A DNA stretch of 61,204 nt, taken from contig CAJCJH010000008.1 in the NCBI GenBank assembly GCA_903970615.1, positions 1 to 61,204 of the forward strand, read 5' to 3'. Position numbers and translations under genes: made by a program. The notes below the pieces were generated by a model. It was not told the origin of the DNA. It did not search any database and saw nothing but the letters and a program-made list of their open reading frames with translations. Shown in pieces: positions 3,758-32,579 of the stretch (positions are counted from its first letter, which is position 1; the number at the start of each line of letters is the position of its first letter). This stretch comes from Rhodospirillales bacterium (GTDB lineage Bacteria; Pseudomonadota; Gammaproteobacteria; Nevskiales; Nevskiaceae).

Positions 3758-3793
3758 ACTCTCGGCAATGCAGATGCCTTGAGCGGATTAGCC

Positions 3794-12889: not shown

Positions 12890-12897
12890 TGCGAACC

Positions 12898-12927
12898 GTC
12901 TGACCGGCTTTGTCTGGCCGGTCAGAC
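12898..12927. repeat. perfect 11-bp stem-loop between DUF1329 and Ycf48-like genes
   Basis: GTCTGACCGGC (12898-12908) and GCCGGTCAGAC (12917-12927) are perfect inverted arms around an 8-base loop, starting nine bases after the DUF1329 stop. There is no T-run after it, so it is more likely a transcript-stabilising or attenuating hairpin than a strong terminator. Confidence 0.7.
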
Positions 12928-12968
12928 TTCACTAGTTCCGCGCGTTCCACCGCAGGATATTGATCAAA

Positions 12969-13937: not shown

Positions 13938-14017
13938 GGAGTTACCCGACGACGACGGGATAGAACTTCTTGCTGGCGCTAAAAATTAAAAGTATCAATT
14001 ACAAGGAGGGGAGAAAC

Positions 14018-16219: not shown

Positions 16220-16324
16220 GCGGGAATCCTCAAGTGCTCGATCACAAGGGGCTTCAGGGGATCGTCCAAGTGTATTTCCGAAAGCTCCTCTGTGAGAGTT
16301 GGTTTCTCCTGAACGCGATCAACG

Positions 16325-16345
16325 ATTGGCGCGCTTATCGCCAAT
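16325..16345. repeat. inverted repeat before the second DUF1329 gene
   Basis: ATTGGCG (16325-16331) and CGCCAAT (16339-16345) form a 7-bp stem with a 7-base loop, 48 bases before the start codon. It may be an operator or a leader hairpin; there is no T-run, so it is not an obvious terminator. Confidence 0.4.
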
Positions 16346-16393
16346 AATGACAATAGCGCTATCGTCGAAGGATATGAGACCGTCCCTGCTCTG

Positions 16394-17776
16394 ATGCACT
16401 TGCTCCGTTACGACCGAGGTTTCAGCCGCCGTCACTTCCTGAAAAAGCTGGCGACCGGCGTAACGGGAGCTGGCGTTTTAATGCCGCTATGGGACGCCAT
16501 CGCCGCGAACGGAGAAATCAGCAAAGCCTATCCGGAAGAACTACTATCCATCGAGGCCTATACGCGCGGCCGGATCAAGCCTGGCGACGAGATCACGGCA
16601 GCCAATGTCGATCTCGTCAAGGACTTGCTGGAGCCGATCAAGTATCTGCAAATATCAAAAATGGGACGACGGCTGCGAGTCGCTAAAACCACGCTCGATG
16701 TGATGCGCCTGAGTCCGTGGGAATATCTGCAAGCCACAGTGCGCAATCGCGGGCTGGCGAAGTTTGACACGCGTGGCAATGTCGTTAACGCCAAAGACGG
16801 TAAGCCCTGGATTGGCGGAAATCCATTTCCCGATAGCCAATCTGCGATCGAATTATTCGCCGGGCTGACGCTGAGCTGGGGTCGTCATGATGCTTCGTTC
16901 TATGCGATCAAGGAAGTCGATCTGTCACCGGAAGGCGAAGCGCTTTTCAGCTATGACCTGGGGTGGGCCGAGCTTTCACCGATTGCGCGAATCAGCATGG
17001 ACCCAAAACCCTACTGGCCTGGGCATGAAGACAAACTACGTTATCAATCGATATTTTTCACCGCGCCGGATAGTGTTAAGGGGACTTCGTTTCTGAATGT
17101 CTGGGACTACGATCAAAGCACGTTTCCCGAGTTGTATGGCTATCTGCCAGCGTTCAAACGCATTCGCCAATTCCCTACCGACCAACGCTTCGAGCCCTTG
17201 ATTCCCGGCTCATCACTCTATTTATCCGATGCCTGGGCAGCAGGCGATCCGCTCTACACCTGGGGCAACTATCGGATCGTCGGCCGCGGTCCGACGCTCG
17301 GTGCGGTAAATGGAGATTGGCACTCGCAGGATTCCAACTGGGAGCGTCCGGTGCATGGCGGCGCGCATGGCGAAACATTTTTCGACACCACCGTAGAACT
17401 AGTGCCCGAAGCAATCGTCGTCGAAGCGGAGCCGATCAGATTCCCACGCGCGCCTATCAGCAAGAAACACGTGTGGTTCGATGCACGGACCTCCTTGCCG
17501 ATTGCGATGGTCTCTTATGATCGTCGCGGGGAAGTCTACCGTTCATTCGACGGCGCGTTTGCGCTGTATGAAGATGGCAGCAAAACCGTATGGGATGGCA
17601 AGCATCCTTACTGGTCGTGGACGCATGTTCACTCCTTCGACATACAGACCAATCGAATGACACGCCTGCAACAAGTCCGCACGATCGGCAACGGCCACAC
17701 CAGTCATGCCAACGATCCAGCGATCTACGACCGCTATCTTACGAGTAGCGCATTGATGAGACTTGGGAATGGCTGA
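16394..17776 (+). CDS. DUF1329 family protein with Tat leader (paralog 2)
   Basis: A 460-residue DUF1329 protein with a canonical twin-arginine motif (FSRRHFLKK) and hydrophobic core (TGVTGAGVLMPLW). By eye about half the residues match the first DUF1329 protein, including the identical block DGKPWIGGNPFPD, LTLSWGRHD, FLSDAWAAGDP-like and W-rich C-terminal strands, so the two are paralogs from a local duplication. Only the leader of this copy fully fits the Tat consensus. It closes the RND-DUF1329-Ycf48-DUF1302 block, 174 bp after the barrel gene. Two carriers with one permease and one barrel could mean two ligands, or a hetero-pair passing one ligand along the periplasm. Confidence 0.85.
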   Translation: MHLLRYDRGFSRRHFLKKLATGVTGAGVLMPLWDAIAANGEISKAYPEELLSIEAYTRGRIKPGDEITAANVDLVKDLLEPIKYLQISKMGRRLRVAKTTLDVMRLSPWEYLQATVRNRGLAKFDTRGNVVNAKDGKPWIGGNPFPDSQSAIELFAGLTLSWGRHDASFYAIKEVDLSPEGEALFSYDLGWAELSPIARISMDPKPYWPGHEDKLRYQSIFFTAPDSVKGTSFLNVWDYDQSTFPELYGYLPAFKRIRQFPTDQRFEPLIPGSSLYLSDAWAAGDPLYTWGNYRIVGRGPTLGAVNGDWHSQDSNWERPVHGGAHGETFFDTTVELVPEAIVVEAEPIRFPRAPISKKHVWFDARTSLPIAMVSYDRRGEVYRSFDGAFALYEDGSKTVWDGKHPYWSWTHVHSFDIQTNRMTRLQQVRTIGNGHTSHANDPAIYDRYLTSSALMRLGNG

Positions 17777-18368: not shown

Positions 18369-20291
18369 ATGGGTAAACTGATCAACATCGATAACGGCGG
18401 CACGCTCACCGACATCTGCGTGATCGACGGTGAAAACGTCTATCGCACGAAAACGGTAACGACGCCTTATGACTTGTCGAGATGTTTCTTCGATGGCCTG
18501 AAGAAAGTATCGAAGACGATTTATGGTGATGAAGATCTGATGTCGCTGCTGCGCAGCACCGACCACATCCGCTATTCGACCACGCAAGGCACCAATGCGT
18601 TGGTCGAACGCAAGGGGCCGCGGCTGGGCTTGATCGTCGGCGGCGGCCTTAGCTTTGAAGCCCTGCAAAATAGCAGCAACGAAAAGGAATTGTTCGCCGC
18701 GCTGATCGGCGAACGTGTGCAGTCGCTCGATCCCGCGCTCGACGAATCGGTACTCGAAACCGCCGCGATGCGCGCGGTCAACATGCTCGCCTCGGCTGGT
18801 GCGAACCGCGTGGTGATCGCATTCGGCGGCGCCGAACGCAGCGCCGCCGAGCAGCGCGTCAAACGCATCCTGCTGCGTAAATTTCCGCCGCACCTGCTGG
18901 GCGCGCTGCCGATCCTGTTCTCGCACGAACTGGTCGAAGACGAGAACGACACGCGGCGCACCTGGACCGCACTGTTCAACGCGTTTCTGCATCCGGCGAT
19001 GGAGCGCTTTCTGTACAACGCCGAGCACAAGCTGCGCGAGAACAAGACCCGCAATCCGCTACTGATCTTCCGCAACGATGGCTTGTCTGCGCGCGTCGCT
19101 AAAACCAGCGCCGGCAAGACCTATAGCTCCGGCCCGCGCGGCGGCGCTGAAGGTGCTAAAGCGCTTGCGCAGCATTACGGCTTCAAGCGTCTGCTATCGA
19201 TGGATGTCGGCGGCACCACCACCGATATCGGCTTGGTCGAAGACGGCGTCGTACGTGCGCATGCACGCGGCAAGATCGAAAACATCGACGTCTCGTTCCC
19301 GCTGTGCGATGTCGTCAGCGTCGGCGTCGGCGGCAGTTCTGTCATCAAGCTTGACGGCAAGGCCATCAAGGTCGGGCCGGAAAGCGTCGGCGGCGCGCCG
19401 GGGCCCGCGTGCTTCGGTCTCGGCGGCAAAGAGGCCACGATCACCGACGCGTTTCTGCTGCAGGGTCTGCTCGATCCGGCTTCGTATTTCGGCGGCGAAT
19501 TGAAGATCGATATCGACCGCGCGCGCGCCGCAATTGGCGAGCAGATCGCCAAGCCGCTGGGAATCTCCGAAGACGTCGCCGCAGTGGCGATGGAAGATGC
19601 CTGGATTGCAAAAGTCGCGGACAGCTTGAAGAAGTTCTGCACGATCGATCGGGATACGACGCTCGCCGCGTTCGGCGGCGCCGGTCCGTTCGTCGTCTGC
19701 AAGGTGGCGGACGCTGCCGGCATTTCGCAGGTCATCATTCCGGGGCTGGCCGCGGTGTTTTCCGCATTCGGTATCGGCTTTTCGGACATCGGCCACCAGT
19801 ACGATGAGCCGTTGCAGGCCTTGAACGACGAAGCACTTAAGGCAGCGCAGAAAACGCTGCTGCTGCGCGCCGAACGCGGCATGTTCGCCGAAGGTTTCGC
19901 GCTGGCCGATTGCGCGACGGAGAAGTCGCTTTCAATCAGCGATGGTGATCAGGAAAGCCGCGTCGTGCTGGCCAACGGAAAATTGCCGGGCGGTCTTTCC
20001 AGCCAGTATCGTCACACGGTTTCGCTGAATGTGGTGAAGGCAATTGCACATCCACAGATGGTCGGAAAATTCGGCGGAAAAATCCAAGCCGCGGTGAGCA
20101 AAGGCACGCGCAATATTGCGGTGGACGGCAAGCGTGTTGAGGTGCCGCTGTACCGCGCCGAAGAACAGCAGGCCGGTGCAACTGCGGCCGGCCCGGCCGT
20201 GCTGGAAGAAGCCTTCTTCACCTGCAGGATCGAAGCCGGCTGGCGCTTTGAATTCAATGTCGCCGGCGACATTCTGCTGACGCGCAGTTGA
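18369..20291 (+). CDS. HyuA-like subunit of an ATP-dependent ketone carboxylase (Apc1-like)
   Basis: A 640-residue hydantoinase A/oxoprolinase-family protein with two actin-like phosphate loops, NIDNGGTLTD near the N-terminus and SMDVGGTTTDIG near residue 277. GTNALVERKGPRLGLI and VGGAPGPACFG are also typical of the family. The family includes the ATP-using subunits of acetone and acetophenone carboxylases, which phosphorylate the enol of the ketone and bicarbonate. It is shorter than AcxA (about 717) and close to Apc1 of acetophenone carboxylase in size. It is the first gene of a 12-gene run, ahead of the small subunit and a second HyuA-like gene. Two HyuA-like subunits plus one HyuB-like subunit separate this system from the three-subunit acetone carboxylase. 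Confidence 0.85.
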   Translation: MGKLINIDNGGTLTDICVIDGENVYRTKTVTTPYDLSRCFFDGLKKVSKTIYGDEDLMSLLRSTDHIRYSTTQGTNALVERKGPRLGLIVGGGLSFEALQNSSNEKELFAALIGERVQSLDPALDESVLETAAMRAVNMLASAGANRVVIAFGGAERSAAEQRVKRILLRKFPPHLLGALPILFSHELVEDENDTRRTWTALFNAFLHPAMERFLYNAEHKLRENKTRNPLLIFRNDGLSARVAKTSAGKTYSSGPRGGAEGAKALAQHYGFKRLLSMDVGGTTTDIGLVEDGVVRAHARGKIENIDVSFPLCDVVSVGVGGSSVIKLDGKAIKVGPESVGGAPGPACFGLGGKEATITDAFLLQGLLDPASYFGGELKIDIDRARAAIGEQIAKPLGISEDVAAVAMEDAWIAKVADSLKKFCTIDRDTTLAAFGGAGPFVVCKVADAAGISQVIIPGLAAVFSAFGIGFSDIGHQYDEPLQALNDEALKAAQKTLLLRAERGMFAEGFALADCATEKSLSISDGDQESRVVLANGKLPGGLSSQYRHTVSLNVVKAIAHPQMVGKFGGKIQAAVSKGTRNIAVDGKRVEVPLYRAEEQQAGATAAGPAVLEEAFFTCRIEAGWRFEFNVAGDILLTRS

Positions 20292-20358
20292 GGCTTTGCA
20301 GACTCGCGCCGATCCAATACCACCCAATCACTATCGCTGAATTGCGGAGCAAGACACC

Positions 20359-20799
20359 ATGAAAGTTCTCGTCACCGAATATTTGCGCATCAATCTCGAT
20401 ACCGAGAAATGGGAATGCCGACGTTGCGATCACGTACTGAATTCCGCGCGTGAAAACTATAAGCGCAGCTTGCGTGTTTACGATCGTGATCCGCGTGAAA
20501 TCCACAAACCCCTGCTCGATACCAAGCTGTATTCACGGACCTATTCGCCGGATCCGACCTGGTGTCGCATCCTCGAATACTACTGCCCGCAGTGCGCCAC
20601 GATGTTCGAAGCTGAATACCTGCCGCCCGGCCATCCGCCGGTTTACGACATCGAGTTCGATATCGATGCTCTGAAACTGCAATGGAAGGATCGCACCCAA
20701 GTCAAGGAGCCGGTGATTGGTCCGGACCTGGCGCTGGAAAAAGTGAAGATGGGTCGCGCGATTCACGCCAGCCATCAGCACGGCCACAGCCATACTTAG
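20359..20799 (+). CDS. carboxylase small subunit (acetone carboxylase gamma-like, Apc2-like)
   Basis: A 146-residue protein resembling AcxC/Apc2. It has two Cys pairs, CRRC near residue 21 and CPQC near residue 76, which can form a zinc ribbon, and the typical segments YCPQCATMFEAE and PPVYDIEFD. The C-terminus ends in a histidine cluster (HASHQHGHSHT), which may bind metal. In acetone and acetophenone carboxylases this subunit binds between the large subunits. The start at ATG 20359 follows the first subunit gene by 67 bp, and the next subunit gene begins 11 bp after its stop, so these genes are surely co-translated. Confidence 0.85.
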   Translation: MKVLVTEYLRINLDTEKWECRRCDHVLNSARENYKRSLRVYDRDPREIHKPLLDTKLYSRTYSPDPTWCRILEYYCPQCATMFEAEYLPPGHPPVYDIEFDIDALKLQWKDRTQVKEPVIGPDLALEKVKMGRAIHASHQHGHSHT

Positions 20800-20810
20800 G
20801 GCGAACGACG

Positions 20811-22946
20811 ATGAAACGGGTATCAGTCGATATTGGCGGCACTTTTACGGATTGCTTCGTCGCTTGGGGCGATCGCAACATCCAGGGCAAGGCGCTGACC
20901 ACGCATCACAATCTGGCGCTCGGCTTCAATGAGGCGCTGGCGAACGCCTGCAAGGAGCTGGACGTCGAAGTGCCGGCGCTGCTTTCGCAGGTCGACTCGG
21001 TGCGTTATGCAACCACGCTCGGTACCAATGCGTTGATCGAGCGTAAAGGTCCGCGCATCGGTGCGCTGGTGACCACCGGATTCAAGAGCACGATTCCGCT
21101 ATCGCGTGCGCGCGGCTACGGCGAAGGTTTATCCGAAGAGCGGCAGATGGATATTCCGAATGCGCAGCGGCCGGAAGCGCTGGTGCCGATCCCGATGATC
21201 CGCGAAGTGCGCGAGCGCGTCGATTATCTCGGCGATATTTTCTGGGAACTCGACGAGGATGATGTGCGGCTGCGCATCCGCGAACTGGTCGACGCCGGCG
21301 CCGAAGCGCTGGTGGTCGCGTTCACCAATAGCGTGGTCAATCCCAGGCACGAATTGCGCGTGCGCGAAATTTTCCTGGAGGAATATCCGGCGCATCTGCT
21401 CGGCGCGATTCCGTTGCTGCTGTCGCATCAGGTTGCCGGCCGCAAAGGCGAATACGCGCGTTCGATGTCCACCATCATGGATGCTTTCCTGCACGCGACG
21501 ATGTATCACGGCCTTGGCACGCTCGAATTGAATCTGCGTGCGCAGGGTTACGACAAGCCGATGCTGGTGAACCACAACTCCGGCGGCATGGCGCAGCTGA
21601 ACTCCACGGATGCGCTGCAAACCGTGCATTCCGGACCGGTCTCCGGTATCGCTGCGAGCGAGCATCTGATGCTGCAAACCGGGCTCGGCAATGTCGTCGC
21701 CACCGACATGGGCGGCACTTCGTTCGATATCGGCATCGTCGATCAGGGCGGTGTGAAGCATTACGATTTCAATCCGGTGATCGACCGCTGGCTGGTATCG
21801 GTGCCGATGGTGCATCTGGTCACGCTCGGCGCCGGTGGCGGCTCGATCTGCAGTTACGAGCGCATGTTCAAGACGGTGAAGATCGGCCCGCAATCGGCCG
21901 GTTCTGATCCCGGCCCGGCCTGCTATGACCGCGGCGGCCTGAAGCCGACCGTCACCGATGCCGATCTGCTGCTCGGCTATCTCGATCCGGCGAATTATGC
22001 GAACGGCCACATCAAGCTGAATCCGCGCCGCGCGAAGCAGGCGTTTGAAAACGAACTCTGCGACGAACTCGATCTCGACGCGGTGGAAGTCGCCAAGCTG
22101 ATCAAGAAAACTGTTGACGCTAATATGGCCAACGGCATTTCCACCGAGCTGCGCACGCGCGGCTACGAGCCGAAGCATTTCACCACGCTGGCCTATGGCG
22201 GCAACGGCCCGCTGCACGCCTGCGGTATCGCCGATGCGCTCGGCATCGACCGTATTCTCGCACCGCCGTTTTCGTCGGTGTTCTCGGCCGTCGGCGCCGG
22301 CAACATGAACCAGATGCATATCCACGAGATCAGCACCTGGACTACTTTGTTCGATGCCAATCTGAAGCGTTTCTACGCGGATTACGACGGCTTCAACAAC
22401 AATGTTGAAGAACTCGAACGGCGCGGCCGCGAGGATCTGCTGCGGCAGGGCTTCGATCCGAAGCAGATCGAATACCGGCTTGAACTCGATATGCGTTACG
22501 GCAACCAGCGCGTGCAGACCGCCGTCGTCAGCGAGATGACGCGGCTCACCAGCCAGCGCGACGTGCTGCGGCTGATCGACCAGTTCTCCAAGCGCTACGG
22601 CGAACGCTTTGGCGAAGGCAGTCAGTCGCCCGAAACCGGCATTCGCATCAACACGCTGCGCGTGTGCTCGTACGTCGTGCAGTCGACCGCAGAGTTTTCC
22701 GGCATTCAGGACGATGGCCGCATCGGCCAGACGGTTGCGCCGATCGGCACACGCCAGTGTCATTTCCCCGGTCACGATGGCGCGGTTGAAACGCGTTTGT
22801 ACGATATCGCAGCGCTGGCGGTGGGCACCCGCATCGATGGTCCGGCGCTGGTGACGACGCCCGCAACAACGTATCTGGTCGAACCGGGCTGGCGTTACTA
22901 CGCCGCGAGCCAAGGCGCGGTGTGGTTCACGCGCGGCGGCCATTGA
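20811..22946 (+). CDS. second HyuA-like ATP-binding subunit of the ketone carboxylase (Apc3-like)
   Basis: A 711-residue hydantoinase A-family protein. The N-terminal loop is SVDIGGTFTDCF (about 4-15) and the second is ATDMGGTSFDIG near residue 300. GTNALIERKGPRIGALVT, NHNSGGMAQL and GAGGGSICSYE are also seen. The length matches AcxA/Apc3. I chose ATG 20811 because the glycine-rich phosphate loop then begins right after it, as in the family; the open frame upstream overlaps the small subunit in another reading frame. Unlike the 640-residue paralog, both phosphate loops keep the canonical D-x-G-G-T with a hydrophobic x, so this may be the main ATP-hydrolysing subunit (inference). Confidence 0.88.
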   Translation: MKRVSVDIGGTFTDCFVAWGDRNIQGKALTTHHNLALGFNEALANACKELDVEVPALLSQVDSVRYATTLGTNALIERKGPRIGALVTTGFKSTIPLSRARGYGEGLSEERQMDIPNAQRPEALVPIPMIREVRERVDYLGDIFWELDEDDVRLRIRELVDAGAEALVVAFTNSVVNPRHELRVREIFLEEYPAHLLGAIPLLLSHQVAGRKGEYARSMSTIMDAFLHATMYHGLGTLELNLRAQGYDKPMLVNHNSGGMAQLNSTDALQTVHSGPVSGIAASEHLMLQTGLGNVVATDMGGTSFDIGIVDQGGVKHYDFNPVIDRWLVSVPMVHLVTLGAGGGSICSYERMFKTVKIGPQSAGSDPGPACYDRGGLKPTVTDADLLLGYLDPANYANGHIKLNPRRAKQAFENELCDELDLDAVEVAKLIKKTVDANMANGISTELRTRGYEPKHFTTLAYGGNGPLHACGIADALGIDRILAPPFSSVFSAVGAGNMNQMHIHEISTWTTLFDANLKRFYADYDGFNNNVEELERRGREDLLRQGFDPKQIEYRLELDMRYGNQRVQTAVVSEMTRLTSQRDVLRLIDQFSKRYGERFGEGSQSPETGIRINTLRVCSYVVQSTAEFSGIQDDGRIGQTVAPIGTRQCHFPGHDGAVETRLYDIAALAVGTRIDGPALVTTPATTYLVEPGWRYYAASQGAVWFTRGGH

Positions 22947-22992
22947 GCGAACGCATCGCGTTCGAACCGACAGCAACAACGAGGATTCAAGC

Positions 22993-25272
22993 ATGAACGA
23001 CGCGCAGCTTTCGAAAGACGACAAGGCGCTGCTGGATAAATTTCTGGCAGACAACCGGCTGTTCCTCGGACCCGATCCGGAGATCATGCGCAATCACGGC
23101 GTGCAGCCGCGCTCCGCACTTGAGGAGCGAGCGCTGGCGACGAAGCTCGATCCGCACCAGATCAATCATGTGCGCGGACTGATCCACGCCGCACTCTCCG
23201 AATCCTTCACGATGGTCAACCAGATGGGCGCAGCACCTGGCGCCAAGTGGGGCGATCTGGTCACCGCCATCTTCACGGCGCAGGGCGACCTCGCAATGAT
23301 CGCCCCGCACGGCATCATCACCTTCGCCGCCTGCTGTTTTTATCCGATCCGCTTCATCATCAAGAACTGGGTTGACGATCCCACTGTCGGCGTGAAAGAG
23401 GGCGACGGCTTCATTCACAACGACGCGCGTTACGGCGGTGTGCACAACACCGACCAGTCGATGATGATGCCGCTGTACTACAAGGGCCAACTGGTCTGCT
23501 GGCTGTCCTCGACCATCCACGAAGGCGAAAACGGCGCCTGCGAGCCCGGCGGTCTGCCGGCGGCGGCCGAGAGCAAGTACGACGAAGGCATCAAGATGTC
23601 GCCCTTCAAGGTCGTCGAGAACTACCAGCTCAAGCGCGATCTTGTCACCTTCCTGCAGAACTCGGTGCGCGATCCGAAGCTGCAGCTCGAAGACATGAAA
23701 GTGAAGCTGCATGCGGTCATGCGGCTCGGTGAGCGCATCACGGCGATCCTCGATCAGTTCGGCGAGGAATTGCTCACCGGTACGCTGCGCATGCATCTCG
23801 AGGACACCGAGGCTGAAGTACGCCGCCGAATTCGGGAGATGCCGGACGGTACCACGCGCGTCTTGCAGTTCATGGATTCGACGCTGCGCGAGAACGCACT
23901 GCAAAAAATCTCCTGCGCGATCACGGTCAAGGGTGATCGCATGATCTGCGATTTCCGCGGCAGCTCGCCGCAGTTCATGAATCGCAGCGTCAACACCAAC
24001 GTGGCCTCGTTCAAGGCCGCGCTCTGTACCGGCCTGCTGCAGAACATCTGGCCCGATCTGCCGCACACGATGGCGGTACTGTCACCGATCGAGATTCTCA
24101 CCGATCGCAACAGCGTTATCGATGCCGAAGGCGAGATGCCGCAGGCCATGAGCCTGATGCCGATGTTCAAGGCCTGCGTGGCCTGGAACGTGCCGATGAG
24201 CAAGTTCAACTACAGCCTGCCGCATCGCTATACCGCGATCCTCGCGCCGCAGTACGACCAGGCCGCGACCTTCATTTACGGCGGCCTTAACCAGCACGGC
24301 GACGTCACCGGCAACTTCTGCGGCGACATCAACGGCATGGGGCAGGGCGCGCGCAGTCATGCCGACGGCGAGCATTCGGTATCGCCCGTGTTCGGCTTCA
24401 TGGCGGATTCCGGCGAGCACGAAATCAACGAGGAAGACACCCCGATCATCCGGCTCGGCGCGCAACGCATCGCCAAGGATCGCATCGGCTTCGGCAAGTA
24501 TCGCGGCGGCATGGGTTACGAGCAGATTGCCACCGCGCGCGGCTCCGGTATGTGGGGCTTCATGACCGGCTGCGAAGGCTCGAAGTTTTCGTCCGCGCAA
24601 GGTCTGTTCGGCGGTTATTCGTGTCCTTCGTACCAACTCTGCAAGATCAAGGGCGTCAACATCTTCGACGAGCTGAAGAAGAACCCGCGCATTGTCGATG
24701 TGTTCGACATCGTGCAACTGATGAACGAACAACCCTTGCCGGGCAAATACACCAGCCAGGATATGGGCATGACCTTCGAGCTGTGCACCGAAGGCGAGGT
24801 CTACATGATCTGCCAGGGTGCCGGCGGCGGTTATGGAGATGTGCTCGAACGCGATCCGGAACTGGTGATGAAGGATTTGCGCGAGGATTTGATGTCGCAC
24901 GAGAACGCCGTTGATATCTACAAGGTGGTCTACGATAAAGAGCAATTGGTGGTGGATGTGGAGGCCACCGCCGAACTGCGCTCAGCCGAGCGGCGCGCGC
25001 GCCTGGCACGCTCGAAACCTTATGACGAGTTCGTCGCCGAATGGGTTACGCCCGAACCGCCGAAACACCTGACTTATTTCGGCAGCTGGAACGACAACCG
25101 CGAGATCTGGGCGCAGAACCCCGCAATCAACATGACGGTAAAGATGGACGCCGACAAGTTGCAGGGTTTCTACATGCCGAATCCGAAAGATCTTCGCATT
25201 GCGGAACTCGAAGGCGAAGTCGGTGCGCTGAAGTCCAAACTCGAAGCCTGTGTGTCAGCGACGAAGAAATAG
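22993..25272 (+). CDS. HyuB-like catalytic subunit of the ketone carboxylase (Apc4/AcxB-like)
   Basis: A 759-residue hydantoinase B-family protein. NDARYGGVHNTDQSMMMP (about 140-157), STIHEGENGACEPGG (about 173-187), CDFRGSSPQ and GAGGGYGDVLERDPE are the family signatures. The His and Asp residues in HNTD and STIHE fall where acetone carboxylase alpha places its metal ligands. This subunit is expected to join phosphorylated ketone enol and carboxyphosphate-derived CO2. It has a lysine/alanine-rich C-terminal helix (about 735-759, AELEGEVGALKSKLEA), which looks like a short coiled coil. It follows the HyuA-like gene by 46 bp. Confidence 0.9.
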   Translation: MNDAQLSKDDKALLDKFLADNRLFLGPDPEIMRNHGVQPRSALEERALATKLDPHQINHVRGLIHAALSESFTMVNQMGAAPGAKWGDLVTAIFTAQGDLAMIAPHGIITFAACCFYPIRFIIKNWVDDPTVGVKEGDGFIHNDARYGGVHNTDQSMMMPLYYKGQLVCWLSSTIHEGENGACEPGGLPAAAESKYDEGIKMSPFKVVENYQLKRDLVTFLQNSVRDPKLQLEDMKVKLHAVMRLGERITAILDQFGEELLTGTLRMHLEDTEAEVRRRIREMPDGTTRVLQFMDSTLRENALQKISCAITVKGDRMICDFRGSSPQFMNRSVNTNVASFKAALCTGLLQNIWPDLPHTMAVLSPIEILTDRNSVIDAEGEMPQAMSLMPMFKACVAWNVPMSKFNYSLPHRYTAILAPQYDQAATFIYGGLNQHGDVTGNFCGDINGMGQGARSHADGEHSVSPVFGFMADSGEHEINEEDTPIIRLGAQRIAKDRIGFGKYRGGMGYEQIATARGSGMWGFMTGCEGSKFSSAQGLFGGYSCPSYQLCKIKGVNIFDELKKNPRIVDVFDIVQLMNEQPLPGKYTSQDMGMTFELCTEGEVYMICQGAGGGYGDVLERDPELVMKDLREDLMSHENAVDIYKVVYDKEQLVVDVEATAELRSAERRARLARSKPYDEFVAEWVTPEPPKHLTYFGSWNDNREIWAQNPAINMTVKMDADKLQGFYMPNPKDLRIAELEGEVGALKSKLEACVSATKK

Positions 25273-25369
25273 CTTGGTCACGCGCAAAGACATCGAATCG
25301 CGCGAGCACCTCGTCTGCGATTGAGGCCGTGATCCGCAGACGCGAAAAATAAGAGAGCGAGGAGACGAG

Positions 25370-26185
25370 ATGTACGATTACAGCAAGGCGTTCCGTATTG
25401 ACGGCAAGGTCGCCTTGATCAGTGGCGCTGCGCGCGGCATTGGTGCGGAGATCGCTAGCGCGCTGGCGCAGGCCGGCGCCAGCGTGCTGGTCACCGATGT
25501 GGTCGAAGGCCTGGCGAAGGAACAGGTCGCACGCTTGCGCAAGGCCGGTGGCAAGGCTGAGTTCATCCGGCACGATGTCACCATCGAAGCCGACTGGGCG
25601 GCGGCGGTCGCCGCGGCGGTGCAGCTTTTCGGTGGCCTCGACATCGTCGTCAACAATGCCGGTATCGAAACCGCGGCGCTGATCTCGCAATGCGAGGTCG
25701 AGGATTTCCGCCGCGTGCTCGACGTCAACGTCACCGGCGTGTTCCTCGGCGTGAAGCATGCAATCCGCACGATGGCGCCCGGCGGCGCCGCCGGCAAGGG
25801 CGGCTCGATCGTCAATATGTCGTCGGTTGCCGGCATCATCGGCACCACCGCGCACGTCGCCTATCACACCTCGAAAGGCGGTGTGCGTCTGCTGACCAAG
25901 GCAGCCGCGATCGAATGCGCGCAGCTCGGTACCGGTATCCGCGTCAATTCGATCCATCCAGGCATTGTCGGCACCGACATGGGCGACAACTTCATCAAGC
26001 ATTTTGTCGACCTCGGTCTGGCGCCGGATCTCGACAGCGCCACCGCGGCGATCAAGGGCCTGCATCCGATGGGTTTCGGCAAGACCGACGATGTCGCCTC
26101 GGCAGTGCTGTATCTGGCCTCGAACGCTTCGAAGTGGGTCAACGGTTCGGAGCTGGTGATCGACGGCGGCCTCACCGCAGCCTGA
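25370..26185 (+). CDS. SDR family oxidoreductase
   Basis: A 271-residue classical SDR with the cofactor loop SGAARGIG (18-25), NNAG (95-98), Ser151/152, Tyr165 and Lys169 (YHTSK). The Asp at the end of the second strand (VTDVV) suggests NAD(H) preference. ATG 25370 has a GAGCGAGGAGACGAG ribosome region upstream. In the ethylbenzene pathway of Aromatoleum an SDR makes acetophenone from the alcohol just before the carboxylase. This gene is placed directly after the HyuB-like subunit, so an alcohol dehydrogenase producing the ketone substrate is the natural guess. Confidence 0.88.
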   Translation: MYDYSKAFRIDGKVALISGAARGIGAEIASALAQAGASVLVTDVVEGLAKEQVARLRKAGGKAEFIRHDVTIEADWAAAVAAAVQLFGGLDIVVNNAGIETAALISQCEVEDFRRVLDVNVTGVFLGVKHAIRTMAPGGAAGKGGSIVNMSSVAGIIGTTAHVAYHTSKGGVRLLTKAAAIECAQLGTGIRVNSIHPGIVGTDMGDNFIKHFVDLGLAPDLDSATAAIKGLHPMGFGKTDDVASAVLYLASNASKWVNGSELVIDGGLTAA

Positions 26186-26208
26186 AGACCTCATCCAGAC
26201 CTCCTCCA

Positions 26209-27045
26209 ATGGCCGCCTTCCTCGATCGCATGACCGGCAGCAAGCTGCTGTGGCTCGACTACAGCGCTTACGCGGGCACGCTGCTGGCCGGCGGCAGGAT
26301 TCCCTGGCTGGATGTCGCTGCTTGCATCGGCTGGCAGCGTAAGGCGCAAGGACTGCTGAAATCCGATGTGGTGCCGGTGCCGGTGGCGCTGCTGATCGCC
26401 GACTGGCTGGCCACACATTCTGAACTTGCACGCGCAATGGGTGAAAAGAAACGGGTTCTGTTCCCGCTCAAAACGCTGCTCGCCGACAGTCTGCTGCGCG
26501 GCCATCTGCTCGATCTGTTGCAGGGTCTGCGCAGCAGCTTCGGTAAAACGCTACTGGCGCTCGTGCTGCCTGCGCCGCGCCGCTGGATCGCCATCGCTTG
26601 TGAGCAGGCCGGCGCGAGTGCTGATAACGGCGACATCGGTGGCGACGAGATCGACAGTGCTTCGGTGTATGTCGCAGATTTCCTCCGCGCATTCGGCCAA
26701 AGCGGCATTGATTCGCTTTTACTGGAGGAGGCCGCAGACGTTTCCTTGACGTCCTCCGGACTCGAGTTGTACCAGCCGATGATCAATGTCGCCGCACATT
26801 ACCGTTGGGATTTCGGCATTCATCTCAAGGCCGGTGCGAATGGCCTGGATACAAGTGCAGGACTCGGATTCGTGATCGCACCGTCGGTCGTCGAAACCGT
26901 CGCAACGGGAATTGAAATCCCGACGGCATTCTGGGCCGATGCGCCCGTGCCGGATTGCCCCGCAAACGGATTCCGCTTCGCCGAAGTGCCTGCCGACGCC
27001 AGCCCGGAAAAAGTGCTGGAACGGCTCGGCGTGTTGCGCGGTTGA
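26209..27045 (+). CDS. uncharacterised protein in the Apc5 position of the carboxylase operon
   Basis: A 278-residue protein (about 30 kDa) with no domain I can name. The middle is Leu-rich (LLADSLLRGHLLDLLQGLRSS), and the C-terminal half has a YRWDFGIHL segment and a final EKVLERLGVLRG helix. Acetophenone carboxylase has a fifth, loosely bound subunit of similar mass (Apc5) with no relatives of known function, encoded after the HyuB-like gene. This protein is in about that position, separated only by an SDR gene. The assignment rests on position and size, not on sequence recognition. ATG 26209 starts 23 bp after the SDR stop; its ribosome site is weak. Confidence 0.6.
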   Translation: MAAFLDRMTGSKLLWLDYSAYAGTLLAGGRIPWLDVAACIGWQRKAQGLLKSDVVPVPVALLIADWLATHSELARAMGEKKRVLFPLKTLLADSLLRGHLLDLLQGLRSSFGKTLLALVLPAPRRWIAIACEQAGASADNGDIGGDEIDSASVYVADFLRAFGQSGIDSLLLEEAADVSLTSSGLELYQPMINVAAHYRWDFGIHLKAGANGLDTSAGLGFVIAPSVVETVATGIEIPTAFWADAPVPDCPANGFRFAEVPADASPEKVLERLGVLRG

Positions 27046-27067
27046 AGCGAACAGAACCAAGCGCGCC

Positions 27068-27532
27068 ATGGACAAGCTGCCATTCAAATCGGACTACGTC
27101 GGCACCTATATCGCCAGCCTGACTCCGCCCGAAATCATCGGGCCGTTACCGGAAGGAATCCGGATCAATTTCTATGTCACCGGCGGTGAGATGTTCGGCG
27201 AAAAACTGCGCGGCAGCTTGCGCGCCGTCGGCGGTGACTGGCTGACGCTGCGCAGCGACGGCGTGGCCACGCTCGACGTGCGCGTCACCATCGAGACGCA
27301 CGATGGCGCCTTGATCTATGTGCATTACAACGGCGTCGGCGATCTCGGCCCCGCCGGCTACGCGGACTTCCTCGCCGGCAAGTTGCCAAAGACCATGGGC
27401 CTGCGGACCACGCCGCGCATGCACACCGCGCATGCGGCTTATACCTGGGTCAATCGCGTACAGTTTTTCAGCATCGGCGAAGTGGATTTCGAAAATTCCT
27501 CGGTGCGTTACGACGTCTACGCGCTGGGTTGA
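27068..27532 (+). CDS. DUF3237 family protein
   Basis: A 154-residue protein recognisable as DUF3237: LRAVGGDWLTLRSDGVATLDVRVTI and GALIYVHYNGVGD are the core barrel strands, and RMHTAHAAYTWVNRVQFFSIGE ends the fold. DUF3237 proteins are small beta-barrels often found in aromatic and hydrocarbon catabolic clusters, without a settled function. It starts at ATG 27068, 22 bp after the Apc5-position gene, and is followed 42 bp later by the CoA ligase gene, so it is inside the operon. It may bind or isomerise a pathway intermediate. Confidence 0.82.
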   Translation: MDKLPFKSDYVGTYIASLTPPEIIGPLPEGIRINFYVTGGEMFGEKLRGSLRAVGGDWLTLRSDGVATLDVRVTIETHDGALIYVHYNGVGDLGPAGYADFLAGKLPKTMGLRTTPRMHTAHAAYTWVNRVQFFSIGEVDFENSSVRYDVYALG

Positions 27533-27574
27533 TTGCTTGCAAACCGCCGAGCGTTTGAGCAGGAGAATGGATGC

Positions 27575-29599
27575 ATGATCGCCGAAGGTGAGTTGCTCTG
27601 GGCGCCGCGCAAGGAGTTTGCGCAAGGCTCCAACGTCAGCGTCTACATGAAATGGCTGCGCGAACATCGCGCGCTGAATTTCGCCAGTTATCAGGAGTTG
27701 TGGCGCTGGTCGGTCACCGACATCGAGGCGTTCTGGGGTTCGATCTGGGATTATTTCAAACTCCATTCGAAGACTCCTTATCGGCAAGTGCTCGATCGTC
27801 GCGTGATGCCCGGCGCGAAGTGGTTCGACGGCGCCACGCTCAATTTCGCCGAGCACATGCTGCGCTACGAAGCCGAGGCCGCACCCGGCAAAATCGTGTT
27901 CCATCACCTCACCGAAGTGCGGCCGCTGTCGACCATGAGCTGGCAGGAACTCGGCCGGCAGGTACGCATTCTTGCGACGCAATTACGCGCGATCGGCGTG
28001 GTGCCGGGCGATCGCGTGGTCTCGTACATGCCGAATGTGCCGGAGACGGCCATCGCGTTTCTGGCAACCGCCTCGATCGGCGCGGTGTGGTCCTCAGCGG
28101 CCCCCGAGTTCGGTATCAAGACCGTGGTCGAACGCTTCTCACAGATTCAACCGAAAATCCTGTTCGCCGGCGATGGCTATCGATTCGGCGGCAAGGATTT
28201 CGATCGAGAAGCCGAAGTGCGCAGCATCGCGCAAGCGCTGCCTTCGCTTGAGCGCGTGATCTGGCTGCCGCATCTGCATTCGGAAAATCCGCTGCCGAAA
28301 CTCGACCGTGCGGTGCTGTGGTCGGAAGTGATGTCGCACGCCGATGTTCCGCGCGAAGAGTTTCGTTATGAATATGTCGAACAGGATCATCCGCTGTGGG
28401 TACTGTTCTCGTCCGGCACGACCGGTCTGCCGAAGGCGATCGTACACGGGCATACCGGCGCGCTGCTTGAGCAGATCAAGCTGATGAACTTCCATATCAA
28501 CCTGGGGCCGGATTCGGTGATGTTCTTCTACAGCACCACCGGCTGGATGATGTGGAACATTCTGCTCGCAGCACTCCTCACCGGAAGTGGAGTCGTCCTC
28601 TACGACGGCAGCCCGGTGCATCCCGGCATGGACTTTTTATGGAAGCTTGCGGCAGATACGAAAACGACCTCGTTCGGCGCCTCGCCGACGTTCGTGCAGA
28701 TGATGGAAAAGGCCAACCTCAAACCGGGCGAACAGTTCGATCTGTCGCATCTCGAATCGGTGGTCGTCGCCGGCGCGCCGTCGACGCCGGAAACCTTTGA
28801 GTGGTTCTATCGCTGCGTCAAGCAGGATTTATGGGTGACTTCGCAATCCGGCGGCACCGAGGTGTGCAGCGGTCTGGTCGGCGCAGTGCCGACCCAGCCG
28901 GTGTATGCCGGTGAGATCCAATGCCGCATGCTCGGCATGGATGTGCATAGCTGGAGCGATGACGGTAAGGAAGTGATCGACGAAGTCGGCGAACTGGTCG
29001 TGACCCAGCCATTCCCGTCGATGCCGATCTTTTTCTGGAACGATACCCACGGCAAGCGTTATCACGACTCCTATTTCGATACCTTCCCCGGCGTGTGGCG
29101 TCACGGCGACTTCATCAAGATCAACCGGCGCGGCGGCGCTTATATCTACGGGCGCTCGGATTCCACGCTGAACCGCCACGGCGTACGCATCGGCACCGCC
29201 GAAATCTATCGCGCCGTGGAGCAGGTGGCGGAAGTCGCGGACAGTCTCATCGTCTGTTGCGAGACGCCCGGCGGTGGATTTTTCATGCCGCTATTCGTGC
29301 GGCTCAAGCCAGGCTTCAAACTGGACGATTCGCTCACCCGAAAAATCGCACAGAAGCTGCGCGAGGACTGCAGCCCGCGCCATGTGCCGGATCGCGTCTA
29401 CGAAATCGCCGAGGTGCCGTACACGCTCACCGGCAAGAAAATGGAAGTGCCGGTGCGCAAGCTGCTGATGGGCTGGGATCTGGCAAAAGCTGCGAGCCGC
29501 GATGCGATGACCAATCCGCAGGCGATCGATTATTTCGTCAAATTCGCGGCGGAGTCGGCGGACTATCCGCGCGTCGCGCCGAAAACCGCCGATGTATGA
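27575..29599 (+). CDS. acetoacetyl-CoA synthetase-like beta-keto acid CoA ligase
   Basis: A 674-residue ANL-superfamily ligase of acetoacetyl-CoA synthetase type. The P-loop-like motif is [16 protein letters not shown] (about 276-291), then [20 protein letters not shown] and a C-terminal lysine in [11 protein letters not shown]. The N-terminal cap [17 protein letters not shown] is typical of AACS. ATG 27575 follows AGGAGA by nine bases. In the acetophenone pathway the ligase Bal, encoded next to apc1-5, activates the carboxylated product benzoylacetate. This gene is in the equivalent place and most likely activates the beta-keto acid made by the carboxylase. No thiolase gene is in the window to complete the cleavage. 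Confidence 0.88.
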
Positions 29600-29616: not shown

Positions 29617-30561
29617 ATGGCCACGCTCGATCCAAATGCTGCACAGGTGCTCGCCGCGATGGCCTTGTCGGGCTATCCGCCGCTCGATGAAATGTCGCCT
29701 GCCGATGCGCGCGCCGCCTCGGCATTGGGATTCGCTTCGATGCGCGGACCGAAGCGGGAAGTTGCGGTGGTGCGCGAGGTGAATGCGGAAGGGCGGCATT
29801 CGCCGATCCCGCTGCGGCTTTATCGGCCGCTCGGCAGCAATGCGGACAGCGCCTTGCCCGCCGTGGTTTTCTATCACGGCGGAGGCTGGGTGATCGGCGA
29901 TCTCGACATCTACGATCACGTCTGCCGCATCCTGTGCGAAGCGTCCGGTTGCGTCGTCGTGTCGGTAGATTACCGGCTCGCGCCCGAGCACAAGTTTCCA
30001 GCGGCCGTGGAAGATGCGTTCGATGCGCTGCAATGGATCTCGAAGCATGCCGGCACGCTCGGCATCGATCCCGAGCGTCTAGGCGTTGCCGGCGATTCCG
30101 CAGGCGGCAATCTCGCCGCCGTGACCAGTTTGATCGCGCGCGACGCCGGCGGTCCGGCGCTGAAGCATCAATTGCTCCTTTACCCGGCGACGCACGTGAG
30201 CGGCACCACCACGAGTTACCACGAAAATGCCGAGGGCTACTTCCTCACCGCGTCGTTGATGAGATGGTTTGGAGAACACTATTTTAACGACGCTAACGAT
30301 CGCTCCGACTGGCGCGCTTCGCCGCTGCTGGCATCCTCACACCGTGACTTGCCGCCGGCCACCGTCATGGTCTGCGGATTCGATCCACTGCGCGACGAAG
30401 GTATCGCCTATGAGGAGGCATTGAAGCAGGCTGGCGTGGCCACCGAACTGATCCGCGTCGACGATCAGATTCATGGTTTTCTGATGATGGATGGGGCAAT
30501 TCCGTCCGCAGTGAAATACCTCCAACGATGCGGCGCTGCGGTGAAGCAGGCGCTGGCCTGA
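29617..30561 (+). CDS. alpha/beta hydrolase, hormone-sensitive lipase family
   Basis: A 314-residue carboxylesterase of the HSL (type IV) family, with the oxyanion motif HGGGW (about 89-93), the nucleophile motif GDSAGG (about 158-163), an acid near GFDPLRDEG and His near QIHGF. ATG 29617 is preferred because AGGAG lies ten bases upstream; an ATG at 29596 overlapping the ligase stop is possible. In a CoA pathway it might hydrolyse an ester or lactone side group of the substrate. The substrate is unknown. Confidence 0.87.
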
Positions 30562-30583: not shown

Positions 30584-31345
30584 ATGAATCGCGTAAAGGG
30601 AAAAGTCTGCGTAATCACCGGCGGTGCGCGCGGGCTCGGCCTGGCCGCGGCCGAAGCGCTGCTGGCGGAAGGTGCGAAAGTGTTGATCACCGATCTGGAC
30701 GTCGCCACCGGTGAAGCAGAAGCGAAACGTCTCGGCAACAACGCGCGTTTTCGTCAGCAGGATTCGACCCAGCCTGAGCAATGGAACGATGTACTCGATG
30801 GCGTCATTGCCGAGTGGGGCCGGCTCGATGTGCTGGTCAACAACGCCGGCATTGGCTCGTTTATCGATGTCGAAAAAGTCACGCTTGAAAGCTGGCAGCG
30901 CACGCTTGATGTCAATCTCAACGGCGTCTTTCTCGGCACGCAGGCAGCGATTGCGCGCATGAAAGCGCAGGGCGGGTCGATCATCAACATGGCCTCGATC
31001 GAAGGCCTGCTGGGCGACGGCATGCTGCCGGCGTACAACGCCAGCAAAGGCGGTGTACGCATCTTCACGCGGTCGGCCGCGATTCACTGCGCTCGCAGCG
31101 GCTACCCGATTCGCATCAATGCGGTGTGTCCGGGTTTCGTCGATACGCAACTCGTTGCGAGTGCCATCGGTGCCTTGTCGCCCGAGGTTGCGCAGACGCT
31201 GGCCGCGAAAACCATGGCGCGAATTCCGATGGGGCGTTTTGCAAAACCCGCAGAGATCGCAACGGCAGTGCTGTTTCTGGCATCGGACGAAGCGAGTTAC
31301 GTCACCGGTTCGGATCTGGTGGTCGATGGCGGCATGACTGCGTGA
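30584..31345 (+). CDS. SDR family oxidoreductase
   Basis: A 253-residue classical SDR with TGGARGLG (12-19), Asp at the end of strand 2 (ITDLD, NAD-type), NNAG (86-89), Ser138, Tyr151 and Lys155 (YNASK), and VTGSDLVVDGGMTA at the end. The start at ATG 30584 follows GAGGAGCGAACG. It is the second full SDR in the operon and keeps all catalytic residues. It may act on a different hydroxyl or on the same centre with opposite stereochemistry. Confidence 0.88.
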   Translation: MNRVKGKVCVITGGARGLGLAAAEALLAEGAKVLITDLDVATGEAEAKRLGNNARFRQQDSTQPEQWNDVLDGVIAEWGRLDVLVNNAGIGSFIDVEKVTLESWQRTLDVNLNGVFLGTQAAIARMKAQGGSIINMASIEGLLGDGMLPAYNASKGGVRIFTRSAAIHCARSGYPIRINAVCPGFVDTQLVASAIGALSPEVAQTLAAKTMARIPMGRFAKPAEIATAVLFLASDEASYVTGSDLVVDGGMTA

Positions 31346-31442: not shown

Positions 31443-32579
31443 GTGAGCAAGAAACCTGTCGTGATTTATGGCGTCACCGGCTACACCGGCCGGCTGGTGG
31501 CCGAATACTTGCGCGAGTACAAAGTGCCTTTCATCGCTGCGGGCCGTGACGGCAAGCGCATCAAGGAAGTGCTCGACAAGGTGCCGGGCATCGAAAATGC
31601 CGAATACGAAATCGCCGAAGTCGAGCACACCACGGCCGCGCTGACGAAGCTGTTCAAAGGCACCAAAGTTGTGTGCAACATGGTCGGCCCGTTCATGAAG
31701 TACGGTCCGGAAGCGGTGGAAGCCTCGCTTGCGGCCGGCGCGCACTACACCGATACCAACGGCGAGCAGAACTGGATGATGCATGCCGAAAAGGAATGGG
31801 GTACTGCGTTCGCCGAGAAGAACCTGCTGTTAGCACCCGGCATTGCGCAGATGTACACCACCGGCGAAATCGCCGCGAACTTATGCCTCGAAACGCCGGG
31901 GCTCGACACGCTGGACATCCTCGTGCTGTGGCGCGGGTTCCCGACCTACGCATCGACGCAAACCATCTTCAGCATTCTCACCGCGGACTTCTTCTATCTC
32001 GAACAGAACAAGTATGTGCAATGGCCGGCCCAGGCCAAGGCGGAAGTAATGGTGCCCGGCCAGCACGAAACCGCGATGGCCTTGCCTTGGGGCGGCACCG
32101 CGCATCCGGTATGGTTCAAGAACGATCCGCGCGTGGCGACCTGCAAGGCCATGGGCGGTGTGTTCGATCGCACGGTGATGGAAGGCGTGGTGCAGATCGC
32201 CGCCGTGGTCGAAGAGAAGATCAAGCCGATGCCGAAAGCAGAAGCTGAAAAGGCGCTGTCCGACATGGCGGCGAGCCTGCAAGCCGGCATGCCGCCGCGC
32301 GAAAACGCGCGCATCAACACCTCGGTGGATTCGGTGCATGCCAGCGGCCCGCTCGGTCGCGCGCACTGCGTGATTCACGGCAACTGCAACTACAAGCAGA
32401 CCGGTCTGCAGCAGGCCTACGCGGCCTATCATCTGCTGCAGGCGCCGCCCAAGCGCTACGGTTTCGCGTCCGGCTGCCAGGCGTTCGGACATCGAGAACT
32501 GCTGGGCGTGATGCAGAGCTTCGGTCTGGTCAGCGAACCGAAGCTGACGGTCGATGCGCTGTCGGTGCGCCGCGGATAA
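31443..32579 (+). CDS. saccharopine dehydrogenase-like NAD(P)-binding protein
   Basis: A 378-residue protein with an N-terminal Rossmann fold (VIYGVTGYTGRLVAEYL, about 7-23) and the segments CNMVGPFMKYGPEAVEA and GAHYTDTNGE found in saccharopine dehydrogenase-like and trans-acting enoyl reductase-like proteins. The start is GTG 31443 after AAGGAGTCGTTC. It is not a lysine-pathway enzyme by context; relatives in lipid and polyketide clusters reduce unsaturated or keto acyl groups. Its place in the ketone operon suggests a reductase for an intermediate, but the direction is unknown. Confidence 0.8.
   Translation: MSKKPVVIYGVTGYTGRLVAEYLREYKVPFIAAGRDGKRIKEVLDKVPGIENAEYEIAEVEHTTAALTKLFKGTKVVCNMVGPFMKYGPEAVEASLAAGAHYTDTNGEQNWMMHAEKEWGTAFAEKNLLLAPGIAQMYTTGEIAANLCLETPGLDTLDILVLWRGFPTYASTQTIFSILTADFFYLEQNKYVQWPAQAKAEVMVPGQHETAMALPWGGTAHPVWFKNDPRVATCKAMGGVFDRTVMEGVVQIAAVVEEKIKPMPKAEAEKALSDMAASLQAGMPPRENARINTSVDSVHASGPLGRAHCVIHGNCNYKQTGLQQAYAAYHLLQAPPKRYGFASGCQAFGHRELLGVMQSFGLVSEPKLTVDALSVRRG

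Follow-up and report, generated by a model that had tools for sequence, protein, structure and literature searches.

A predicted five-subunit, ATP-dependent ketone carboxylase of the acetophenone carboxylase kind in a Nevskiaceae genome

A 61,204-nt stretch of a Nevskiaceae genome (contig CAJCJH010000008.1 of GenBank assembly GCA_903970615.1; hereafter the window) carries a run of genes that, judged from sequence comparisons and a modelled fold, very probably encodes a five-subunit ATP-dependent ketone carboxylase of the same kind as acetophenone carboxylase (Apc) of Aromatoleum aromaticum EbN1. We also consider it likely, with somewhat less confidence, that this enzyme acts on a hydrophobic ketone other than acetophenone. 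The system is best read as a second deep Apc branch, built like Apc and distinct from acetophenone carboxylase proper; the Apc branch held one characterised enzyme when its structure was described, according to PMC5214803. Coordinates refer to the whole window, and the genes described between 8891 and 33698 lie on the plus strand.

Four core genes open the run, encoding alpha′ (ApcA-like, HyuA fold, 640 aa; 18369-20291), gamma (an ApcB-like zinc ribbon, 146 aa; 20359-20799), alpha (ApcC-like, HyuA fold, 711 aa; 20811-22946) and beta (ApcD-like, HyuB fold, 759 aa; 22993-25272). The alpha start at 20811 lies inside a 754-aa open frame and agrees with the alignment to the Apc structure 5L9W. The 278-aa predicted epsilon subunit (26209-27045) and a 674-aa beta-keto-acid CoA ligase of the acetoacetyl-CoA synthetase (AACS) family (27575-29599) complete the set. 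An earlier, sequence-only reading had named these six proteins, and all are open frames of the place and length that it gave. It had also proposed the order apc1-2-3-4-(5)-bal; all five subunit homologues are indeed present and followed by a ligase, but the zinc-ribbon gamma stands second, not third. The direct succession of beta, 278-aa protein and ligase that it described does not hold, as it overlooked a short-chain dehydrogenase/reductase gene (SDR1; 25370-26185) and a DUF3237 gene (27068-27532) that intervene. The order alpha′, gamma, alpha, beta, epsilon is thus the published apc order with one SDR inserted before epsilon.

In phmmer searches of PDB chains, the best match of each core protein was its counterpart in 5L9W; chains of acetone carboxylase, oxoprolinase and hydantoinase scored lower. 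The E values were 4.2e-91 for alpha′ (chain b; the runner-up, at 1.3e-68, is the other HyuA-like Apc chain), 2.3e-31 for gamma (chain C; acetone carboxylase 2.1e-12), 2.7e-151 for alpha (chain B; acetone carboxylase 1.3e-81) and 7.8e-85 for beta (chain A; acetone carboxylase 7.7e-38). Identities to the EbN1 subunits are 34% (alpha′), 46% (gamma), 38% (alpha) and 31% (beta). ASKHA motifs are found in alpha′ (DNGGTLTD, DVGGTTTD and PGPACF) and in alpha, all four zinc-binding Cys residues are kept in gamma, which lacks the N-terminal extension of acetone carboxylase (Acx), and the D/H/D/H metal site of beta is conserved (D65/H123/D126/H148). The interface motif R/KERiDsxG occurs in alpha as RERVDYLG, with the third and last positions kept and s replaced by Y, and was not found in alpha′. 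Together with the gene order and the ligase family, the 5L9W matches bear out the proposal that the locus has an Apc-type plan and carries a beta-keto-acid ligase of its own. The four NCBIfam models ApcA-D were themselves found, all below their equivalog cut-offs (349 bits against 1250, 134 against 250, 528 against 1500 and 312 against 1500); caprolactamase models matched more weakly, but genuinely. At 759 aa, beta compares with 684 aa in EbN1 and 774-785 aa in Acx frames, and so does not show the Apc-family trait, given in PMC5214803, of a beta subunit about 50 aa shorter than that of Acx.

Phylogenies of the kind that the sequence-only reading had proposed placed none of alpha, alpha′ and beta inside the Acx or Hyd references, the latter being HyuA/HyuB pairs of Aromatoleum-group and Azoarcus genomes rather than characterised enzymes, with no characterised oxoprolinase row. 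The window system shares neither the three subunits and clade of Acx nor the two subunits and Hyd clade of hydantoinases and oxoprolinases. Tree building was fast and included no bootstrap, and archaeal and Hyd rows drew long-branch warnings from the program. With these limits, the 103-row beta tree separates four Hyd rows, six EbN1-type Apc rows (two Aromatoleum-group, three Nevskiaceae and one Haloterrigena), six Acx rows and a window clade of 87 rows (Shimodaira-Hasegawa-like approximate likelihood ratio test, SH-aLRT, 100). The EbN1 rows are those of a locus (L116) whose ApcD lies above the equivalog cut-off and whose four core lengths equal the 5L9W chains; among the other loci, L078 and L120 are one locus, L069 and L070 have identical beta scores, and the Verrucomicrobiota, Bacteroidota and Ignavibacteriota rows, from metagenome-assembled genomes or unclosed contigs that may be mis-binned, were not counted as phyla. 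In a 45-row subset, window and EbN1 types share a branch against Acx and Hyd at an SH-aLRT of 88, below the program's mark of 95. The joint tree of alpha and alpha′ has 78 rows. A branch with an SH-aLRT of 95 sets apart all 35 alpha′ rows, those of the EbN1 type as well as those of the window type, which argues that the extra kinase subunit has a single origin in both branches; one HyuA gene of a Haloterrigena plasmid (L007) falls outside this group. A clade of EbN1-type and window-type alpha subunits is not rejected (approximately unbiased test, p-AU 0.586), though it is not shown either.

The 278-aa protein, for which no Pfam or NCBIfam family was found, had been described as an orphan. A predicted structure and profile comparisons indicate that it is most likely the epsilon subunit, an ApcE homologue with a fold like that of uroporphyrinogen decarboxylase (URO-D). 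Its AlphaFold2 model, built from 40 aligned sequences, has a predicted local distance difference test score (pLDDT) of 95.7 and a predicted TM-score (pTM) of 0.93. Foldseek against the PDB ranks ApcE in 9FOU, a structure released in December 2025, in positions 1-3 (E between 1.8e-8 and 5.6e-8), with TM-scores of 0.62-0.66 relative to the query. Next come uroporphyrinogen decarboxylases, starting at E 3.1e-6, then MetH and a Methanosarcina methyltransferase. As a lone query, the window protein reaches neither EbN1 ApcE nor the epsilons of loci L006 (Halorientalis), L104, L105 and L106 at E <= 10. A first-round profile of the window type only (65 rows) finds these four at 4.6e-7, 2.8e-5, 0.002 and 7.2e-5, respectively, and a profile of 40 aligned epsilon rows finds L006 at 1.6e-5 and L104 at 0.002. 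L104 and L106 are EbN1-type epsilons of Nevskiaceae; L104, L105 and L106 are 39-43% identical to EbN1 ApcE (L104 43% and L106 42%, over about 290 residues). A second-round profile of 70 rows, including L104, L106 and L006 and made without EbN1 ApcE, then reaches EbN1 ApcE at 1.7e-7; its values for the three included rows are circular and were left unused. The fold match to 9FOU is independent of this chain of profiles, and our degrees of confidence are unaffected by the circularity because they are based on the core subunits and the epsilon fold.

Among 40 epsilon rows, Arg160 and Asn193 are each conserved in 39; the six distant rows inspected have Arg and Asn at the aligned positions, and three of the six (L006, L104 and L106) were in the second-round profile. 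Among 72,556 plasmid records, epsilon finds eight by tblastn (E <= 1e-5), and these are the top eight bacterial records for beta among the 848 with a beta match; the record in ninth place is a Halorientalis plasmid with a diverged fifth gene, found by the first-round profile at 4.6e-7. Sixteen genomes have no epsilon at the fetched locus, three of these loci (L048, L080 and L082) stopping less than 2 kb past beta, where a neighbouring epsilon is possible. Thirteen of the sixteen carry one elsewhere, nine at E 1e-82 or better and the remaining four as weaker matches (best E 1e-22 to 2e-36). By hand count, 13 of 58 family genomes hold at least two window-type beta genes (>=47% identity). Solimonas aquatica DSM 25927, for example, has two window-type cores (loci L024 and L054) and a single epsilon match (in G077). 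These sequence data suggest that one epsilon may serve several cores of a cell.

A carboxylase-like operon of the Haloterrigena plasmid L007 (2341-9932) has a URO-D gene between two HyuA genes, together with a gamma of the acetone carboxylase type. The URO-D gene matches Pfam URO-D at 3.1e-13, EbN1 ApcE at 5.9e-7 (blastp) and the second-round profile at 3.4e-4, and by sequence it looks intermediate between URO-D and ApcE.

The two branches differ at the presumed ketone site of alpha, which in EbN1 is lined by L81, F281, N282, P285, I333, Q344 and T345 according to PMC5214803. The predicted window pocket reads T-V-H-P-I-H-L against L-F-N-P-I-Q-T in EbN1, a difference at five of seven positions. 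Window-type rows read T-[V/I/L/M]-H-P-I-[H/Y]-[L/M] and EbN1-type loci LFNPIQT (5/5). Within the window clade, His occupies position 282 in 81 of 81 rows and position 344 in 80 of 81, with Tyr in Halorientalis; a second alignment (43 alpha rows and two reference copies) gives 30/30 and 29/30 for window-type rows. That alignment also gives LIVPMAM for acetone carboxylase (3/3 rows; the Acx reference stretches are identical to those of acetone carboxylase 5SVB), TLLPIDI in two Hyd rows and LINPFQV in the third, and TYNPVNV and MFNPIES in two Haloterrigena rows. The conserved pair is His273/His335 of the window alpha, where EbN1 has Asn and Gln. The pair persists in operons whose activating enzymes differ, from which we infer that it belongs more to the chemistry than to substrate choice.

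The alternative that survives best, although we regard it as unlikely, is a short-chain ketone carboxylase on the five-subunit plan, in which the SDR would turn isopropanol or 2-butanol into acetone or butanone and the products would be acetoacetyl-CoA or 3-oxovaleryl-CoA. The ligase is the evidence for it. This protein scores 788.8 bits against TIGR01217 (cut-off 520.9), which places it in the acetoacetyl-CoA synthetase family, and matches the solved AACS 4WD1 at E 1.3e-209 (701 bits); no other AACS-type ligase turned up in the genome, where the next match is 29% identical. However, acetone carboxylases proper have three subunits, as the sequence-only reading correctly stated (PMC5214803), and they branch separately. 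The operon ligases, together with relatives from Phyllobacterium (L135) and Rhizobium (L136), are likewise split from four plasmid AACS genes (SH-aLRT 99), and they carry SQSGGT[E/D] in 44 of 47 rows (the window counted twice, the pattern unfound in three) where 4WD1 has SVSGGTD.

The tie of such ligases to acetoacetate may itself be loose. In Rhizobium leguminosarum, a relative 56% identical to the window ligase follows genes for a phosphoenolpyruvate-utilising protein, a biotin carboxylase and a HAD phosphatase, a cluster that looks like the Hpe pathway as outlined in PMC9618137 and PMC13101465. This setting suggests, by analogy, that aroyl acetates may also be substrates of AACS-type ligases. 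Next to the carboxylase, Neorhizobium has a pair of CoA transferase genes and Halorientalis has AMP ligases and a thiolase, so that the common theme would be activation of the acid product. On a Phyllobacterium plasmid (L135, 8373-17490), an AACS gene whose product is 72% identical to that of the window accompanies SDR, DUF5938, lipid-transfer-protein and hydrolase genes, with no carboxylase annotated within the 26-kb stretch shown; this set is perhaps a portable beta-keto-acid module.

A diverged carboxylase of acetophenone or another aryl ketone, functionally the same as EbN1 Apc, is less probable still. The same five subunits occur in the same order, an AACS-type ligase can accompany an Hpe-like aryl-ketone pathway, and the neighbourhoods are also alike. 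On the same strand after apc-bal, EbN1 (L116, 1480-7150) has homologues of YCF48 (59 bits) and RND (348 bits at 29% identity), and a frame that matches DUF1302 weakly over a short stretch (45 bits), which makes the RND/DUF1329 setting of the window less foreign to ethylbenzene degradation than had been claimed. Against this, the five differing pocket positions are consistent between the clades, and bal is replaced by a ligase of another type: the L117 relative of EbN1 Bal has AMP-binding and AMP-binding_C_2 domains, and the L116 frame is 464 aa long. Moreover, Nevskiaceae own separate EbN1-type operons (G011, G028 and G029), and G028 and G029 hold both types. We rejected an assignment to acetophenone carboxylase proper on the missed equivalog cut-offs, the pocket, the longer beta and the ligase family. 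That the locus encodes an ATP-dependent amide or lactam hydrolase of the hydantoinase, oxoprolinase or caprolactamase type and no carboxylase is extremely improbable: alpha and beta have the HyuA/HyuB fold and the caprolactamase matches are real, but gamma, alpha′ and epsilon are foreign to that class (PMC5214803), alpha, alpha′ and beta lie outside the Hyd references, and a beta-keto-acid CoA ligase would be pointless.

On the favoured reading of a second Apc branch, the enzyme would be a biotin-independent carboxylase composed of alpha′, gamma, alpha and beta with a loosely bound epsilon. SDR1 (Pfam adh_short_C2), whose nine PDB matches at E <= 1e-45 include R-specific alcohol dehydrogenases, is a candidate for making the ketone by oxidation of a secondary alcohol. 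By analogy with EbN1 Apc, alpha would spend ATP to trap the ketone as an enol phosphate, alpha′ would use a second ATP to make carboxyphosphate, and CO2 and the enol would be joined on the alpha-beta-gamma core with the help of the URO-D-fold epsilon. The AACS-family ligase would then convert the beta-keto acid to its CoA thioester, which a thiolase whose gene lies elsewhere would cleave. The substrate would be a hydrophobic ketone other than acetophenone, used for growth by an aerobic Nevskia-like bacterium. A new ketone substrate, as the sequence-only reading had suggested, is plausible; none of its examples (terpenoid, steroid or alkyl ketone) is singled out by the evidence.

The run, with intergenic gaps of 11-97 bp throughout, continues past the ligase to 33698, and 298 bp separate its end from the next gene, which we take to be gmk. 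The DUF3237 protein (Pfam E 1.6e-29) has UPF0311 and uncharacterised proteins as its best PDB matches. Downstream of the ligase lie a possibly accessory esterase of the hormone-sensitive lipase type (29617-30561; LipP1 family, NCBIfam NF058653, 391 bits, cut-off 350), SDR2 (30584-31345; 59% identical to an SDR within the Cupriavidus operon), an accessory DUF5938 oxidoreductase with a saccharopine-reductase-like fold (31443-32579; Pfam E 3.1e-135) and, last in the run, an accessory medium-chain dehydrogenase/reductase resembling enone reductases (32637-33698; curcumin-reductase family, NCBIfam NF058644, 514 bits, cut-off 440). The DUF5938 model (pLDDT 85.8) is closest in fold to carboxyspermidine dehydrogenase 8H4Z, and the protein is 84-93% identical to 12 of 15 aligned relatives and 63-67% identical to the remaining three.

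Neighbours were counted up to 10.5 kb from the end of beta, with clade lists set by hand from the beta tree. Of the 31 loci of clade 1, 30 extend 4 kb or more past beta; among these 30, epsilon is found in 29, AACS (>=45%) in 26, DUF5938 in 18, SDR (>=45%) in 17, DUF3237 in 14 and a LuxR-type regulator in 12. DUF5938 was considered as a marker of the carboxylase. In a hand count over 58 family genomes, from which G022, with beta fragments only, was excluded, hits at E < 1e-100 were present in 18 of the 20 genomes whose beta is at least 75% identical, but also in 12 of 37 others. We rejected this role because DUF5938 occurs in genomes without a close beta, and because the Phyllobacterium SDR-DUF5938-AACS set has no annotated carboxylase. 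Nor could the substrate be read from the neighbours: 466 open reading frames of the relatives' loci without a window homologue gave five clusters present in at least four loci, four of which, when scanned, were a thiolase, an AMP ligase, a CobW GTPase and a GGDEF/EAL protein, the fifth being annotated as a sigma-54 regulator (L003), and no catabolic marker was found among these five. CobW-type GTPase genes adjoin the carboxylase operon in two clade 3 loci (L095, 13109-14422; L119, 12166-13821), perhaps as metal chaperones for the carboxylase. Solimonas L022 and L025 carry a second window-type beta (64-65% identity) whose end lies some 2.5-3.5 kb ahead of the alpha′ gene; between the two, the other strand encodes a diverged AACS.

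Upstream of the carboxylase, and outside the enzyme itself, RND, DUF1329, YCF48-like, DUF1302 and DUF1329 genes occupy 8891-17776; we take AmeC (COG4447) to be of the YCF48-like type. On that assumption these are the gene types of AmeABCD, described in PMC6394551 as an apolar monoterpene efflux system of Castellaniella. By this analogy the setting points to a hydrophobic compound, and the substrate is probably hydrophobic. The pairing of a ketone carboxylase with an apolar-compound transporter recurs in EbN1 and the window. Farther upstream (359-5173) lie a meta-cleavage-type hydrolase gene (359-1279, minus strand), two SDR genes and a gene for a distant CYP51-like P450, followed by a MalT-type LuxR regulator gene (5644-8409, minus strand). 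A steroid reading of these genes was rejected. The 359-1279 alpha/beta hydrolase scores about equally against the BphD and HsaD models, and far under either cut-off (168 of 462 and 166 of 400 bits), the P450 is only distantly like CYP51 and CYP120 chains and terpene-oxygenase models, and as neither gene could be tied to the operon, no substrate was deduced from them. Genes at 45.6-50.3 kb, presumably for cytochrome c oxidase subunits, suggest aerobic respiration. The window genome has one HyuB-type gene, and matching hits place it in the genus of the Nevskia metagenome-assembled genomes L033, L036 and L040.

Several observations weigh against the favoured reading. Among the 23 clade 1 loci that reach 8.5 kb or more upstream, DUF1302, DUF1329 and YCF48 homologues were found in 9 each, so the hydrophobic setting does not hold throughout the clade. 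In the other four groups, epsilon lies near the core in 1/7, 6/13, 7/7 and 6/9 loci and AACS in 3, 4, 3 and 0. The ligase lies above the cut-off of an acetoacetate-CoA ligase equivalog, which would fit a small ketone, and a thiolase is absent from the window operon. Five matches resembling flavin-containing monooxygenases also pass the Pfam cut-off in the window genome, so ketones might be degraded by the Baeyer-Villiger route. The sequence link from epsilon to EbN1 ApcE is indirect, running through Nevskiaceae intermediates, and EbN1 ApcE is missing from the hits of the 65-row first-round profile. Furthermore, the alpha′ counterparts of E248, D274 and K281, proposed as bicarbonate-site residues of EbN1, are S/D/D in the window, and the division of labour between the subunits may thus differ. 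In the residue table, which took the best match per locus, the alpha′ column may show alpha where alpha′ is absent and was used for window and EbN1-type rows only; L106, with a cut alpha′, reads NDD. Finally, among the papers listed, the literature surveyed yielded no characterised member of the window's clade and no activity evidence for any of its members, which is no proof of absence.

Window-type operons are found beyond Nevskiaceae. Rhodococcus RHA1 carries one on plasmid pRHL2; this strain is reported to grow on acetophenone using acpAB (PMC9618137), and a cluster of Rhodococcus ruber Chol-4 is annotated apc1-4 (PMC6498646). A wider synthesis is tempting, if doubtful. The clade could be an uncharacterised second branch, found in Pseudomonadota and on plasmids of Rhodococcus and a haloarchaeon, that activates hydrophobic ketones at a His-pair site of its own and works in air beside or instead of Baeyer-Villiger monooxygenases; epsilon, whose Arg160 and Asn193 are conserved in bacteria and archaea alike, would be a module for carboxyl transfer or CO2 channelling shared in trans by several cores of a cell. 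If a common aerobic second branch of this kind exists, CO2 addition would be a general route to opening inert ketones, one not confined to ethylbenzene degraders. The clade offers a two-residue pocket signature, two epsilon residues conserved in the rows compared, and genomes that combine several cores with a single epsilon match; in biotechnology, its members would be numerous new candidate catalysts for forming C-C bonds with bicarbonate.

Among known systems, EbN1 ApcABCDE with Bal (5L9W, 9FOU) shares with the window the core order, the ASKHA motifs, the zinc Cys residues, the epsilon fold, the ligase gene that follows and the nearby RND, YCF48 and DUF1302 genes. It differs in a core identity of 30-46%, a beta shorter by 75 residues, the pocket and the ligase family, and it lacks the inserted SDR and DUF3237 genes. 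Acx acetone carboxylase has HyuA/HyuB-like subunits and a homologous gamma; it differs in having neither alpha′ nor epsilon (PMC5214803), in its L-I-V-P-M-A-M pocket and in forming a separate clade. The Hpe/Acv hydroxyphenylethanone pathway of Rhodococcus GD02 and SYK-6 is alike in outline, since it phosphorylates, carboxylates, activates and cleaves a methyl ketone; according to PMC9618137 and PMC13101465, however, its carboxylase is biotin-dependent and non-homologous to the ATP-dependent enzyme of EbN1, and it phosphorylates the phenol, not the enol. The operons of Cupriavidus necator N-1 pBB1, Solimonas, Sinimarinibacterium and Burkholderia belong to the same clade, have betas about 78-87% identical to that of the window (78% in C. 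necator N-1 and 86% in Solimonas flava DSM 18980) and share the order alpha′-gamma-alpha-beta-(SDR)-epsilon-AACS, while their DUF3237, DUF5938, esterase and Ame-like genes vary.

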